Below, piece after piece: positions 13,988 to 18,355 of a stretch of 62,266 nt of DNA (positions within the stretch are counted from its first letter, which is position 1; every line of letters starts with the position of its first letter). The notes under the pieces were generated by a model. It saw only the letters and a program-made list of their open reading frames with translations, was not told where the DNA came from and searched no databases. Location: NCBI GenBank assembly GCA_030537075.1, contig JAUNOS010000002.1, positions 1 to 62,266 of the forward strand. Direction: 5' to 3'. This stretch comes from Candidatus Saccharimonadota bacterium (lineage in GTDB: Bacteria; Patescibacteriota; Saccharimonadia; Saccharimonadales; Saccharimonadaceae). A program made the translations under genes and the position numbers.

Positions 13988-14389
13988 CTATGCACCGCCA
14001 CCACGCTTGTTATTTGGCTGCTTAAATGCATAGCGCAGCCCCTTGTATGCCAAAGGTTCGTCCGCAAACCGACCGAATAGATGTAGATGGGCATGATCAA
14101 CGTTCTGCCCGCCAACTGGATGAATATTCCAGCCAAGGTTGTAACCATCAGGAGCGAATTTGTCGATAAATGCCTTGAATCTATGCAGTAGCTCATGCAA
14201 TCTCGTCCACTCTTCTTTATTGATATCAAACGGCGTCTTAATGTGGCGTTTTGTAATAATCATTCCGCCGTGCTTCAATTCTCCATCTTCGGCGCTAACG
14301 AAATACCAAAGATCGTCTTCGTACAGTATGTCACCCCGTAAGATGTCATTTGGTATACAGAATGGACAAATATCTTTCACTACCATCAT
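13988..14389 (-). CDS. HIT domain protein
   Basis: Histidine-triad nucleotide hydrolase or transferase of 133 aa. The triad is HAHLH (residues 99-103) in VDHAHLHLFGRF, preceded by the conserved GYNLGWNIHPVGGQ loop. CPFC at 9-12 with later histidines may bind zinc, as in many HIT proteins. AGGAAAGAGG precedes two adjacent ATGs (14389 and 14386). The gene looks AT-richer than its neighbours and borders the accessory island at 14.4-16.2 kb. Confidence 0.88.
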   Translation of the reverse strand: MMVVKDICPFCIPNDILRGDILYEDDLWYFVSAEDGELKHGGMIITKRHIKTPFDINKEEWTRLHELLHRFKAFIDKFAPDGYNLGWNIHPVGGQNVDHAHLHLFGRFADEPLAYKGLRYAFKQPNNKRGGGA

Positions 14390-14742
14390 CCTCTTTCCTA
14401 GCTTGTATTAAGTGGCTTATACCTGTCTGTATTATAGCATTTTTAGTATTGCCGAAGATGCGTAACGCAGCAGTCCCGCCATCTCTGCCATTTTCCAGTG
14501 AGGCAAGCTGCATGAATTCACATATGAATAAGGTTGGCAAATATCCTATAGGCGACTTTTATCTTTCCACATAACTCAAATACCTCAGCGACAAGCGGTG
14601 CTCGCCGTTTGCCTACGACGACTGTCCTAATGCTTATGCCACATTTATGCAGCTAAGTCGAGAGCGGCCGGACATTTCGCCGTGCCGAACCGCAATTCTC
14701 TCCTAAAAAATAGACTTTACTACGCAAAACCATAATTCCCAA
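14390..14742. other. Non-coding stretch without recognised gene
   Basis: Both strands have only short frames with no family resemblance, and the ones crossing the HIT start are antisense. I see no tRNA. It may be decayed sequence at the edge of the island. Confidence 0.5.
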
Positions 14743-14772
14743 ACAAAAAACGGACGGTTCGCGCCCGTCCGT
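14743..14772 (-). terminator. Terminator-like hairpin left of the inverted-repeat element
   Basis: ACGGACGG (14750-14757) pairs with CCGTCCGT (14765-14772). On the minus strand the stem runs into a T tract (complement of 14743-14750). It would stop minus-strand transcripts leaving the element. Confidence 0.7.
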
Positions 14773-14790
14773 GCAATCTTGTCCTAATTT

Positions 14791-15026
14791 GGTGGCAATA
14801 TACGCCAAAGCTCGAACCTGTTTCGAGCGCAAAAGCTGAGCCGTGCAGGCTTAGCCCCAACGCCTGGCGGGCACAAGCGCCCGCTCGCCCCACCAGCCGG
14901 GGGCCCTGCAAAACTCTGTTTTGTGGGGTGGAGATATACCCTTTGAATTATCTTTTTGAAATTTCCCCCGCCGATCTTTTTATTTTTAGTTGAAAAGGGT
15001 GTTTGCTGGTGATTCGTTTTGATACT
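14791..15026 (+). repeat. Left arm of the 236-bp inverted repeat
   Basis: Base for base the reverse complement of 15865-16100; one further outer base (14790/16101) also pairs. Its outer half is GC-rich with several short hairpins. Its inner half is AT-rich. Confidence 0.95.
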
Positions 15027-15064
15027 AAATTAAGGTATTATTGCAGAATCACCCCTGTTAAGTA

Positions 15065-15093
15065 TTGACTTTAAGTCTATATATTGATATAAT
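15065..15093 (+). promoter_or_regulatory. Near-consensus promoter inside the inverted-repeat element
   Basis: TTGACT, a 17-nt spacer and TATAAT. It lies between the arms, so inversion of the segment would not separate it from the gene. Confidence 0.7.
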
Positions 15094-15102
15094 ATAAAGT
15101 AT

Positions 15103-15819
15103 ATGCTAGTGTCCCATGAAATGCTCAGCATTACAATCAAAGATAGTCCAGTAGAAGTACTCGGAATTCTTGGTGCTGGAGGATCAAAAACTGTTCTCGA
15201 CATTTCTCTTAGTGGATTGAGGTGTGCTCTAGCCATACCAAATCGCACAGACCCTAAAAATGTACAGGACGAGAAGTGGGAACTCGTAGCTAGCGAGGCT
15301 GATAACGCAAGGCTGCTAAGTGAACTTGGATTGTTGACTATACCGGACTATGCATTAGAAGATATTGTGTTAAACGGTGACGCGCGAAAAGGACTTCTTA
15401 TGACTCCGTTCTCAGGCTTGCCGTTCGAGGTTTTTGATGGCAAGGACGGTTCAAGAACGTGGGAGCAAGGACCTTTGTCGGATATCGAGCATTTCTCAAG
15501 GATTAGCGAGAGGATGTCGGCTATCAAGGAGGATATAGCTAGGCTTGCGAGTGCAGGGGTCGTACTGAATTCTGACAGCATATCTTTTGCCTGCATGCCT
15601 GATGGTACGATGCGACTTTTTCTGTATGACCTACAGGGTATGTCGGTCACTGATCAAGCAGATGAGTTGAGTGAATTACCCATGAGATATGCTCAACTCG
15701 TAACGAGTAAACTAGATAATGTATTTGACTTTAGGCAGTCTCAAAGGTTTGCTGCGCAGGGGTATGATTTAAACGCTAGACAGCGGTTGGCCACTACGCT
15801 CATCAATGAGTTGCCTTGA
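15103..15819 (+). CDS. Unknown protein, possible degenerate protein-kinase-like fold
   Basis: Only gene of the inverted-repeat element, 238 aa, AT-richer than the window. I recognise no family with certainty. LGILGAGGSKTVLDISLSG resembles a kinase glycine-rich loop and CALAIPN would be the beta-3 strand, but without the lysine. LLMTPFSGLP looks like a hinge. GVVLNSDSISFACMPDG followed by RLFLYDLQG resembles the catalytic loop and DFG region, with the catalytic Asp/Asn not clearly kept. If so it is a pseudokinase. The promoter TTGACT (15065-15070), 17 nt, TATAAT (15088-15093) is near consensus and ends 9 nt before the ATG; an in-frame ATG at 15121 is the alternative start. No signal peptide or TM segment. 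Confidence 0.6.
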   Translation: MLVSHEMLSITIKDSPVEVLGILGAGGSKTVLDISLSGLRCALAIPNRTDPKNVQDEKWELVASEADNARLLSELGLLTIPDYALEDIVLNGDARKGLLMTPFSGLPFEVFDGKDGSRTWEQGPLSDIEHFSRISERMSAIKEDIARLASAGVVLNSDSISFACMPDGTMRLFLYDLQGMSVTDQADELSELPMRYAQLVTSKLDNVFDFRQSQRFAAQGYDLNARQRLATTLINELP

Positions 15820-15864
15820 AGGCTGTTACTCACCCGTAGACCTTCTGTTAGTATCTTTACTATG

Positions 15865-16100
15865 AGTATCAAAACGAATCACCAGCAAACACCCTTTTCA
15901 ACTAAAAATAAAAAGATCGGCGGGGGAAATTTCAAAAAGATAATTCAAAGGGTATATCTCCACCCCACAAAACAGAGTTTTGCAGGGCCCCCGGCTGGTG
16001 GGGCGAGCGGGCGCTTGTGCCCGCCAGGCGTTGGGGCTAAGCCTGCACGGCTCAGCTTTTGCGCTCGAAACAGGTTCGAGCTTTGGCGTATATTGCCACC
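15865..16100 (-). repeat. Right arm of the 236-bp inverted repeat
   Basis: Exact reverse complement of 14791-15026. The outer part (15980-16081) holds GCGGGC/GCCCGC and GCTCGAA/TTCGAGC hairpins, so a transcript of it would be structured. Confidence 0.95.
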
Positions 16101-16122
16101 ATTTCGGAACTAAAACGGAAAC

Positions 16123-16142
16123 GGTCGCCCTGTCGGGCGACC
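16123..16142 (-). terminator. Terminator of the tRNA-Phe/tRNA-Gly transcript
   Basis: GGTCGCCC and GGGCGACC form an 8-bp stem around TGTC. On the minus strand it is followed by a T-rich run (GTTTCCGTTTTAG) and lies 21 nt past the tRNA-Gly CCA end. Confidence 0.6.
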
Positions 16143-16163
16143 AAATCTCAGAAAATTCCATTT

Positions 16164-16239
16164 TGGTGCGGGTTAGGAGACTCTAACTCCTGGCCTCTTC
16201 CATGGCAAGGAAGCGCTCTAACAACTGAGCTAAACCCGC
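16164..16239 (-). tRNA. tRNA-Gly (anticodon GCC)
   Basis: Minus-strand cloverleaf. GCGGGTT pairs with AACCCGC; discriminator A and CCA are encoded (complement of 16164-16167). The anticodon stem CTTCC/GGAAG holds loop TTGCCAT, giving GCC. It lies 51 nt after tRNA-Phe and is probably co-transcribed with it. Confidence 0.95.
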
Positions 16240-16290
16240 ATGTGGTCTAGATGAAAGTATAGCAAATCTTTCACGCTGGCGCAAGGCTTT

Positions 16291-16366
16291 TGGTGGCTCC
16301 TCCCAGACTCGAACTGGGGACACAAGGCTCTTCAGGCCTCTGCTCTACCAACTGAGCTAAAGAGCC
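16291..16366 (-). tRNA. tRNA-Phe (anticodon GAA)
   Basis: Minus-strand cloverleaf. The acceptor GGCTCTT pairs with AGGAGCC (one G-U pair), with encoded CCA. Anticodon stem GAGGC/GCCTT, loop CTGAAGA, anticodon GAA. Confidence 0.95.
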
Positions 16367-16431
16367 ACGCGAAAAAGGCTTACCTGACTATTGTACTAAA
16401 TACGGCGCGAAATGACAACCTCCCAGAGCCA

Positions 16432-16593
16432 TTATCGCGGGTCGCTCGGCGGCGGCTTCGGTATGGGGATGAGCCGTGGCGGTGGTATCACGGGCGGCTT
16501 TAGCTCTGGCGGAGACGCCACGGGCCCCCTGATCAGCGCTTCGAGTGCGGCGATTAGTAATGCGGCGATGACGATTATAATGCGCCCCTGCAT
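16432..16593 (-). CDS. 53-aa single-pass membrane microprotein, proline-rich tail
   Basis: A small gene of 53 codons plus stop. The protein is MQGRIIIVIAALLIAALEAL followed by a tail of Pro, Lys and Arg (PPELKPPVIPPPRLIPIPKPPPSDPR). Residues 5-20 form one membrane helix, or an uncleaved signal, and the tail is a polyproline-like rod. Support for coding: a minus-strand TATACT (16605-16600) ends exactly 6 nt before this ATG, the same layout as many real genes here, and the hydrophobic-then-proline composition is coherent only in this frame. An ATG 6 nt upstream (16599) is in frame but sits against the -10 box. Function unknown; no homologue recognised. Confidence 0.6.
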   Translation of the reverse strand: MQGRIIIVIAALLIAALEALIRGPVASPPELKPPVIPPPRLIPIPKPPPSDPR

Positions 16594-16613
16594 AGCCATA
16601 GTATACCATGATG

Positions 16614-16622
16614 TGTTATACT
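16614..16622 (+). promoter_or_regulatory. Extended -10 for tRNA-Gly (CCC)
   Basis: TGtTATACT ends 10 nt before the tRNA 5' end. Confidence 0.6.
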
Positions 16623-16632
16623 AAGGGAGTCT

Positions 16633-16707
16633 GCGGATATCGTATAACGGCTATTATGTGACCTTCCCAAGGTTGAGACGGGAGTTCGACTCTCCCTATC
16701 CGCACCA
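16633..16707 (+). tRNA. tRNA-Gly (anticodon CCC)
   Basis: GCGGATA (16633-16639) pairs with TATCCGC (16697-16703), with encoded ACCA. The anticodon stem TGACC/GGTTG (two G-U pairs) holds loop TTCCCAA, anticodon CCC. Confidence 0.9.
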
Positions 16708-16777: not shown

Positions 16778-18355
16778 TTAGCGCAGGCGATTTGGCAAGC
16801 GATGCGCCTCTTCATTGCGCGACTCTGGTGCTGGATGCATGCGGTTTACATTCCACGCCTTGTAGACGTCCATTTTGCGCGCTGGGTAACGTGGATGCTT
16901 CACGGTCACTTGGCTATGTGACATAAAGTCATCCGAGCGCAGGAAGTAATGATATGGTGAATCAGGCAGCGTGCCAAGCATATTGATCTCATGGAATGGG
17001 TCGACATGATACCACTGACCATCGACCTTCACGAGGTTCCACGAGTGGTTAAAGTACTCAGCACGATACGTCGTTGTGTCCGGGTCAGCCAGCATCTCCT
17101 TGGCGCGGTCATAAGAACGCTTTTGAGTGCCGAAATAACCCTGCACGACACGGACATCCAACCCGAGGCGCTCTGCGAGGCGAGCATAGGTCATAGCGTA
17201 GGTCAGACACACGCCCTCACCGTCCAGCATCGCTGATGCCGGGAAGTGAACGCGGCGCAAGCCCTTTGTGTTATAGAACCATTCTGGCCTGTTATTTGGC
17301 GGGGTAAAGAGCTTGATGTTGGTCAGCACCCAGTCGTGCACCAATTTCGCCTTTTCGATATCGCTTAGATTGAGCTTTGCGTAGGTGTTGTAAAATTCAG
17401 TCACCTTCTTCTCGCCCTCTTTGATATAGTCCAGGTCCTCAAAGTAGCGCAAGTCGATCTCGATGGCGTATTTATCACCCTCAACGTGCTTTGGTGTCAG
17501 TGGCACGATATCGATCGCGTAGCGTGTATAGCCACCCTGAAGCGAGCCATTGAGCATCGTGCGGCGCACCTGCTCGCCCTGATCCTGCGTGCCATAGAAG
17601 ACGCCAGTCGTGCGGTCGCCCTGATAAATCTTCTTAATAACGAAATCTTCCAGGTCCTTTTGGCGACCACGAAAATCAATATTACGATATGTGAGCGGAT
17701 AGTCATAATTCACCTCCTGCTTCACAAAGTCTTCGAGTGACATCAATTCACGTGCTTTGCCATACCTAAAGCTCACCTCGTTTGCGCCCTTGCCGAGGGT
17801 GAGTGATTTTTCTGCTGCGTCAAAGCGCTCATAGCCCTTCGCAAACAAATCATCGGCCACGACAGTTACCTGCTCGCCCAAAACACCATGCTTCGTCTGG
17901 GCCGCTATGACCGCGCCCTGCTGATCCAAATGACGCACCGTATATGCAATCTGAGGCGCTGGCGCAGGAGTTTCTGGCTTTTGAGGCACCTCAGGGGCTA
18001 TGGGAGCGGCTGGCACCTGTGGTGCGACGGGCTGCACTGGCAGCTCAACCAATCGCGTTGGCGCGGTTTTTTGCTCAACTGGTCGATGTGCACCATTGAG
18101 AACAAGCTCTTGCTCCTGCTTTACATCAGCGTTCTCCGAGCCAGAAGTCTGCTCTGAGTCCTTGCCTTGCTTCGTCTCCTCCTTATGGGACGGACGCTTC
18201 GAGTTTTCCGCCGTCACTCCCTGTTTTTTACTGTCACGCTTCTGGTCGCCATTTTGCGGGCTCATGAACATGCCCAATACTGACGTACCGACCAAAAAAG
18301 CGATAAATATGACAATGCACGCAAGAATAATTGCTCGCACCTTGCTTTCTTTCAT
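16778..18355 (-). CDS. Membrane-anchored transglutaminase-like protein with MucBP-like domain
   Basis: Surface protein of 525 aa. A basic N-terminus and one TM helix (about 7-31) anchor it. Residues 35-90 are charged and low in complexity, and 95-135 are Pro/Val-rich, a likely wall-spanning stalk. Residues 136-200 (YTVRHLDQQGAVIAAQT, then EVSFRYGKA) look like a MucBP repeat. The C-terminal half is a transglutaminase/protease fold with Cys near 382 (DGEGVCLTYA), His near 437 (NHSWNLV) and Asp near 450 (YHVDPFHE), a complete triad. AAGGAG lies 14 nt before the ATG, rather far. Likely a secreted peptidase or crosslinking enzyme at the host contact surface; substrate unknown. Confidence 0.82.
   Translation of the reverse strand: MKESKVRAIILACIVIFIAFLVGTSVLGMFMSPQNGDQKRDSKKQGVTAENSKRPSHKEETKQGKDSEQTSGSENADVKQEQELVLNGAHRPVEQKTAPTRLVELPVQPVAPQVPAAPIAPEVPQKPETPAPAPQIAYTVRHLDQQGAVIAAQTKHGVLGEQVTVVADDLFAKGYERFDAAEKSLTLGKGANEVSFRYGKARELMSLEDFVKQEVNYDYPLTYRNIDFRGRQKDLEDFVIKKIYQGDRTTGVFYGTQDQGEQVRRTMLNGSLQGGYTRYAIDIVPLTPKHVEGDKYAIEIDLRYFEDLDYIKEGEKKVTEFYNTYAKLNLSDIEKAKLVHDWVLTNIKLFTPPNNRPEWFYNTKGLRRVHFPASAMLDGEGVCLTYAMTYARLAERLGLDVRVVQGYFGTQKRSYDRAKEMLADPDTTTYRAEYFNHSWNLVKVDGQWYHVDPFHEINMLGTLPDSPYHYFLRSDDFMSHSQVTVKHPRYPARKMDVYKAWNVNRMHPAPESRNEEAHRLPNRLR

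Follow-up and report, generated by a model that had tools for sequence, protein, structure and literature searches.

Genomic islands that are integrated at the 3' ends of tRNA genes by tyrosine integrases have been assembled in the Islander collection (PMC4383910); the tRNA stays functional, a recombinase gene lies at one end and the cargo varies. In the same work it was stated that serine-family integrases were not known to target tRNA genes. Integration of serine-recombinase elements into tRNA genes has been described as rare, with Mycobacterium AICEs at tRNA-Leu and phage phiRSM1 at tRNA-Ser as the cases given, one tRNA each (PMC3218068). Large serine recombinases, the Ccr proteins, together with variable cargo also occur in the staphylococcal cassette chromosome (SCC), which targets the 3' end of rlmH. 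Here we show that perfect inverted repeats in a Saccharibacteria genome flank the gene carried by a worn-out copy of an apparently undescribed family of mobile DNA, which inserts at the 3' ends of many different tRNA genes in Saccharibacteria and other Patescibacteria and whose driver is a large serine recombinase.

Results

The inverted repeat and its surroundings

The window, the whole stretch of DNA that was analysed, comprises 62,266 nucleotides of contig JAUNOS010000002.1 (assembly GCA_030537075.1, Candidatus Saccharimonadota bacterium). The preliminary description had reported perfect 236-bp inverted repeats around one gene, with ATTT directly outside both ends, no transposase, integrase or recombinase, and a tRNA cluster next to them. 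This observation is confirmed: the repeats are exact, although 237 nt long, 100% complementary and 838 nt apart. They cannot be due to chance, and neither arm occurs elsewhere in the 810-kb genome. The tRNA cluster, tRNA-Gly(gcc), tRNA-Phe and tRNA-Gly(ccc) to the right of the repeats, is real and turned out to be the target site. The absence of a recombinase holds only for intact genes. The features are as follows.

13988-14389 (-): HIT-family gene, possibly (by inference) cargo of a second, rearranged element; a close relative, compared by eye, is cargo in the element of relative genome G182 (sequence L081:8362-8760)
14563-14748 (-): decayed remnant of a large serine recombinase, corresponding to residues ~118-187 of the protein of relative genome G035, with one stop inside and its N-terminal side towards the left arm (tblastn E 2.6e-4; blastn 79% over 53 bp to sequence L034, 939-991)
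14738-14794 (-): remnant of a recombinase 3' end ("head") joined to the left arm, giving an attP-like junction (profile of 15 heads built without the window, E 5e-4)
14790-15026 (+): left arm of the cargo module; the outer ~50 nt are tRNA-3'-end-like (P' half of attP, outer-end profile E 1.5e-8) and the inner part holds the conserved stem-loop R1 (60 bits with a covariance model built without the window)
15065-15093 (+): near-consensus promoter read from the sequence, TTGACT (15065-15070), 17-nt spacer, TATAAT (15088-15093), with the start codon 9 nt downstream (possibly leaderless)
15103-15819 (+): cargo gene, 238 aa, the one ORF between the arms
15865-16101 (-): right arm, exact reverse complement of the left arm (outer-end profile hit at 16051-16101, E 1.5e-8)
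16102-16163 (no strand): collapsed recombinase module, two inverted recombinase 3'-end copies fused at the GGTCGCCC/GGGCGACC hairpin, also serving as a terminator-like hairpin after tRNA-Gly (head profile hits 16097-16140 (+), E 6e-6, and 16168-16125 (-), E 9e-5)
16164-16239 (-): tRNA-Gly(gcc), the integration target, whose 3' CCA is the core (ARAGORN and Rfam)

The cargo protein matched no Pfam, NCBIfam or PADLOC family at E<=0.001, and no close relative was found in GTDB contigs; a weak relative over the C-terminal 65 aa is present in G012 (G numbers denote the genomes compared). An AlphaFold model of the protein alone reached a pLDDT of only 33 and was unusable.

The arms form a family with unrelated cargo

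A DNA search of 60 relatives found the arm in 12 of them, repeatedly as inverted pairs around other genes. A covariance model (R1) built from 13 arms without the window found the motif in 37 of 295 Saccharimonadia genomes and recovered the arms of the window. We extracted 32 pairs, all of them convergent; one genome (G057) has two copies in the same direction, and no divergent pair was seen. The inverted repeats are 67-300 bp long, often 99-100% identical, and have a sharp outer boundary at (T)TGG. The central stem-loop (for example window 14925-15015) with the conserved loop TTGAGATTTCCCCCGCCGA shows compensatory changes in 9 of 19 pairs, but is absent from some arm families (for example those of sequences L148, L152 and L153); it might represent an ncRNA, a single-strand site or a terminator. 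An Rfam search of the window and its relatives returned only tRNAs and, in two relatives, LOOT RNA (RF03000), a family without known function; the arm motif is not in Rfam. The LOOT RNA (L031:9021-9137 and L029:8519-8637) lies beside an arm and upstream of similar small membrane-protein genes in two genera, inside or next to these elements.

The cargo is unrelated from element to element, as the preliminary description had predicted for copies in relatives. It includes restriction-modification and PD-Lambda-5-like genes (G006), a retron-type RT (G023), the Thoeris gene ThsB and a C5 methylase (G252), a zinc alcohol dehydrogenase (G025, by eye), EamA and MFS transporters, a CAAX protease, peptidase S58, LD-carboxypeptidase, and in elements of G322 a leucyl-tRNA synthetase and another class I tRNA synthetase (L076:8261-10684 and L078:726-3023). 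No transposase is shared among the 32 elements.

A non-autonomous DDE-type transposon (MITE with cargo), with 237-bp terminal inverted repeats and an ATTT target-site duplication, would agree with long repeats around cargo and with the formal ATTT on both sides. Indeed, ATTT flanks both ends (14787-14790 and 16101-16104), but it overlaps the arm by one base, none of the well-delimited relatives shows a target-site duplication, and the left flanking bases belong to a conserved recombinase 3'-end sequence. Together with the position of the serine recombinase and the tRNA core described below, this makes a transposon very unlikely.

A large serine recombinase lies outside one arm

A clade of large serine recombinases lies immediately outside one arm of most fresh cassettes and is transcribed away from the cargo. 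By our count from the two tables, 18 of the 25 genomes with this clade also have arms, against 37 of 295 genomes overall (Fisher p 2e-13). The recombinase gene is itself flanked by a 100-160 bp inverted repeat made of its own 3' end, and this 3' end abuts a tRNA 3' end on the opposite strand in 31 of 38 loci. The reading frame runs through into the antisense strand of the target tRNA (L030:3530-5272, L034:441-2078), giving tails such as RVGIEPTTLGLE; annotated proteins ending this way may mark such junctions. Recombinase units of G061 and G035, from different families of the class, are 87% identical in DNA, pointing to recent transfer.

The closest NCBIfam models are CcrB, CcrC, CcrA and XisF, with scores far below the Ccr cut-offs (NF047343, about 113 against 900 bits). 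Among the best hits in phages and plasmids, relatives of the recombinase were below 30% identity and not of this clade, and a search of IMG/VR by peptide pattern found none. In GTDB contigs 417 relatives were confirmed. The best 80 of these are almost all Patescibacteria (Saccharibacteria, Nomurabacteria, Magasanikbacteria, Yanofskybacteria, Uhrbacteria, Taylorbacteria and others); a few sit in bins labelled otherwise and may be misbinned. Of the 80, 73 have a tRNA 3' end at the recombinase 3' end, of 12 isotypes, and 37 of the 40 with enough upstream DNA carry the recombinase-flanking repeat. Yanofskybacteria and Parcubacteria examples show the same junction types.

An assembly fold-back, one of the options raised in the preliminary description, has to be considered, since many contigs break at these repeats: 40 of the 80 recombinase loci lie within 600 bp of a contig start, an expected assembly break. 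However, it is ruled out as the general explanation, because the same architecture recurs in independent genomes, four of them in one contig (G023, G123, G153 and G207), and in unrelated assemblies. Moreover, the window has an independent relative, G008, with the same right side. We regard an artefact as very unlikely.

The ends coincide with the tRNA 3' end

Intact relatives share one order: the tRNA 3' end with an NNCCA core, the recombinase 3' end, the recombinase gene, an inverted copy of that 3' end, then arm, cargo and inverted arm ending in NNCCA, and finally the displaced terminator of the tRNA. The core agrees with the last 5 nt of the target tRNA in most delimited elements: TACCA for Arg and Met, CACCA for Leu, Gly and Val, AGCCA for Gln and CTCCA for Lys. 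The last ~45 nt of the arm resemble a tRNA T-arm and acceptor strand (GGTTCTAGC...CACCA). All 14 tabulated heads carry a hairpin with a T-run 25-45 nt after the tRNA, and most displaced host flanks start with another such terminator, as expected if the native tRNA terminator was pushed away.

Joining the far arm to the head predicts the attP of a circular form. In 15 of 15 complete elements an inverted copy of this attP, 205-315 bp long and 90-100% identical, sits between recombinase and cargo. Arms are 83-100% identical within an element and at most 87% between elements, so copies are homogenised or recent.

Occupied and empty sites

The search for an empty site in relatives, which had been suggested beforehand as a test, succeeded for a member of the family. 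G333, of the same genus as G207, is continuous at 96% across tRNA-Ala/tRNA-Val, while G207 has 6.8 kb there, cassette plus recombinase, bounded by the 6-bp core TGGTGG; the inserted unit thus contradicts a transposon delimited by the arms. G333 also carries an unrelated insertion with a broken DDE transposase-like ORF near tRNA-Ala, next to the empty site (L176:1824-3051). This is the only clean empty site found: searches for the G025 and G023b elements gave only tRNA hits, because relatives differ around those tRNAs. In G264 two complete elements stand in tandem at one tRNA-Leu (C2:349761-356995).

The tRNA-Gly site of the window is empty in six congeners (G001-G006), where the tRNA is followed by a terminator-like sequence and no arm. 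It is occupied in G008, which has the same collapsed module and a 94%-identical arm, but an LD-carboxypeptidase-like gene instead.

The copy in the window

Profiles of heads and arm ends built without the window hit exactly the expected places, the arm ends at 14790-14840 and 16051-16101 and the three heads listed above. The stretch 16102-16163 between right arm and tRNA-Gly is therefore a recombinase module collapsed to two fused heads, and left of the left arm are a head and a decayed recombinase. No intact recombinase of this family is present in the genome, so activity of this decayed member is unlikely and its perfect arms need another homogenising process. The left side is rearranged: the left arm joins recombinase-like sequence rather than host DNA. 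A direct-tandem reading of the left remnant was rejected because its N-terminal side faces the arm. The block tRNA-Gly/Phe/Gly (16164-16707, compared with L192, L189 and L194) is inverted between the SPFH and amylase-like genes in G000, the genome of the window, and G008 relative to G001, G002 and G006, possibly through inverted att sites. The full extent of the island is therefore uncertain, and the HIT, esterase and ABC genes at 10.9-14.4 kb may belong to it. A 525-aa gene between tRNA-Gly(ccc) and the amylase-like gene (16778-18355) is absent in G008 at the same place.

Discussion

We conclude with high confidence that the inverted repeats are the two P' arms of the cargo module of a tRNA-targeting integrative element. 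In this view, the large serine recombinase of intact relatives would recombine a circular element (attP = tRNA-like arm end + NNCCA + recombinase 3' end) with a tRNA 3' end (attB). The tRNA would stay whole, the end of the recombinase gene would supply it with a new terminator, and its native terminator would be pushed to the far end. The circle would have two inverted attP copies, of which integration splits one, so that recombinase and cargo each end up flanked by their own inverted repeat. In the window the recombinase module next to tRNA-Gly has collapsed to a 62-bp palindrome, a second recombinase remnant lies beyond the left arm, and only the cargo module is intact.

The anatomy, the ends, core and target, the displaced terminators, one clean empty site, the co-occurrence of arms and recombinase, the variation of the cargo and the inverted attP copy are read directly from sequence. 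Catalysis of attP x attB integration, the circular form, of which no instance was seen, the reason why the attP copy is inverted, and homogenisation of the copies by gene conversion are inferred. The recombinase 3' end faces the tRNA in every case examined, which does not fit equal use of two identical attP copies; the inner copy might serve flipping as in the 2-micron circle, cargo exchange or insulation by its terminator.

The interpretation given in the preliminary description was thus partly supported. A non-autonomous mobile unit with cargo next to a tRNA is close to right, whereas transposition with an ATTT target duplication is not supported, since the core is the tRNA's own NNCCA end.

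An invertible, phase-variable cassette, also proposed there, is unlikely. Perfect inverted arms of 130-250 bp can recombine, and the higher identity of arms within than between elements suggests that some exchange or conversion happens. However, the promoter lies inside the cargo module, so that a flip would not switch it, the cargo is replaced rather than merely flipped, and the whole unit integrates at tRNAs. Flipping remains possible as a by-product of homologous recombination.

Cargo exchange by homologous recombination between arms, aided by natural competence and with the recombinase only a past passenger, appears doubtful. In favour are the same site and similar arm with different cargo in G000 and G008, and restriction-modification genes shared between the G006 and G207 elements at 83% nt; inverted arms would also accept cargo in either orientation. 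This does not explain the tRNA core match, the displaced terminators or the conserved recombinase position, but it could operate together with the main explanation.

Patescibacteria have tiny genomes and few described mobile elements. This family provides precise ends, a target rule and a driver enzyme for a widespread vehicle of defence systems, transporters and even tRNA synthetases. Recombinases with short tRNA-end cores could also be useful genome tools, and the conserved inverted second attP raises the question of how such elements replicate, amplify or exchange cargo. A more far-reaching reading, which we consider possible but rather unlikely, is a Patescibacteria-wide class of small integrative elements in which a large serine recombinase targets the 3' ends of many tRNA isotypes through tRNA-mimicking sites and every element keeps two inverted attP copies. 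The circle would then be a bacterial analogue of the 2-micron plasmid, able to flip and amplify, or a natural recombinase-mediated cassette-exchange system that lets reduced-genome bacteria trade defence and metabolic genes.

Comparison with described elements

Literature searches, limited to open-access work without subscription papers and preprints, found no description of such elements in Saccharibacteria or Patescibacteria. Integron gene cassettes are likewise compact, exchangeable cargo units next to structured recombination sites. Without a dedicated attC or IntI model, no IntI or attC was identified and the cargo genes scanned included no tyrosine recombinase; the arms are inverted pairs, not one attC per cassette. 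The yeast 2-micron circle has two inverted copies of a recombination site dividing it into two unique arcs, as does the circle inferred here from 15 integrated elements, but Flp is a tyrosine recombinase and 2-micron is not known to integrate. SCC elements share the large serine recombinase and the variable cargo, but the recombinase scores described above lie far below the Ccr cut-offs, and the target is a tRNA rather than rlmH. With the Mycobacterium AICEs and phiRSM1 (PMC3218068) the family shares a serine recombinase and a tRNA target; with regard to target and layout, one family here uses 12 isotypes and has the twin inverted attP. The family resembles the genomic islands of the Islander collection (PMC4383910) in its target at the tRNA 3' end, the tRNA that stays functional, the recombinase gene at one end and the variable cargo, and it differs from them in that the enzyme is a large serine recombinase and that an inverted second attP is present.
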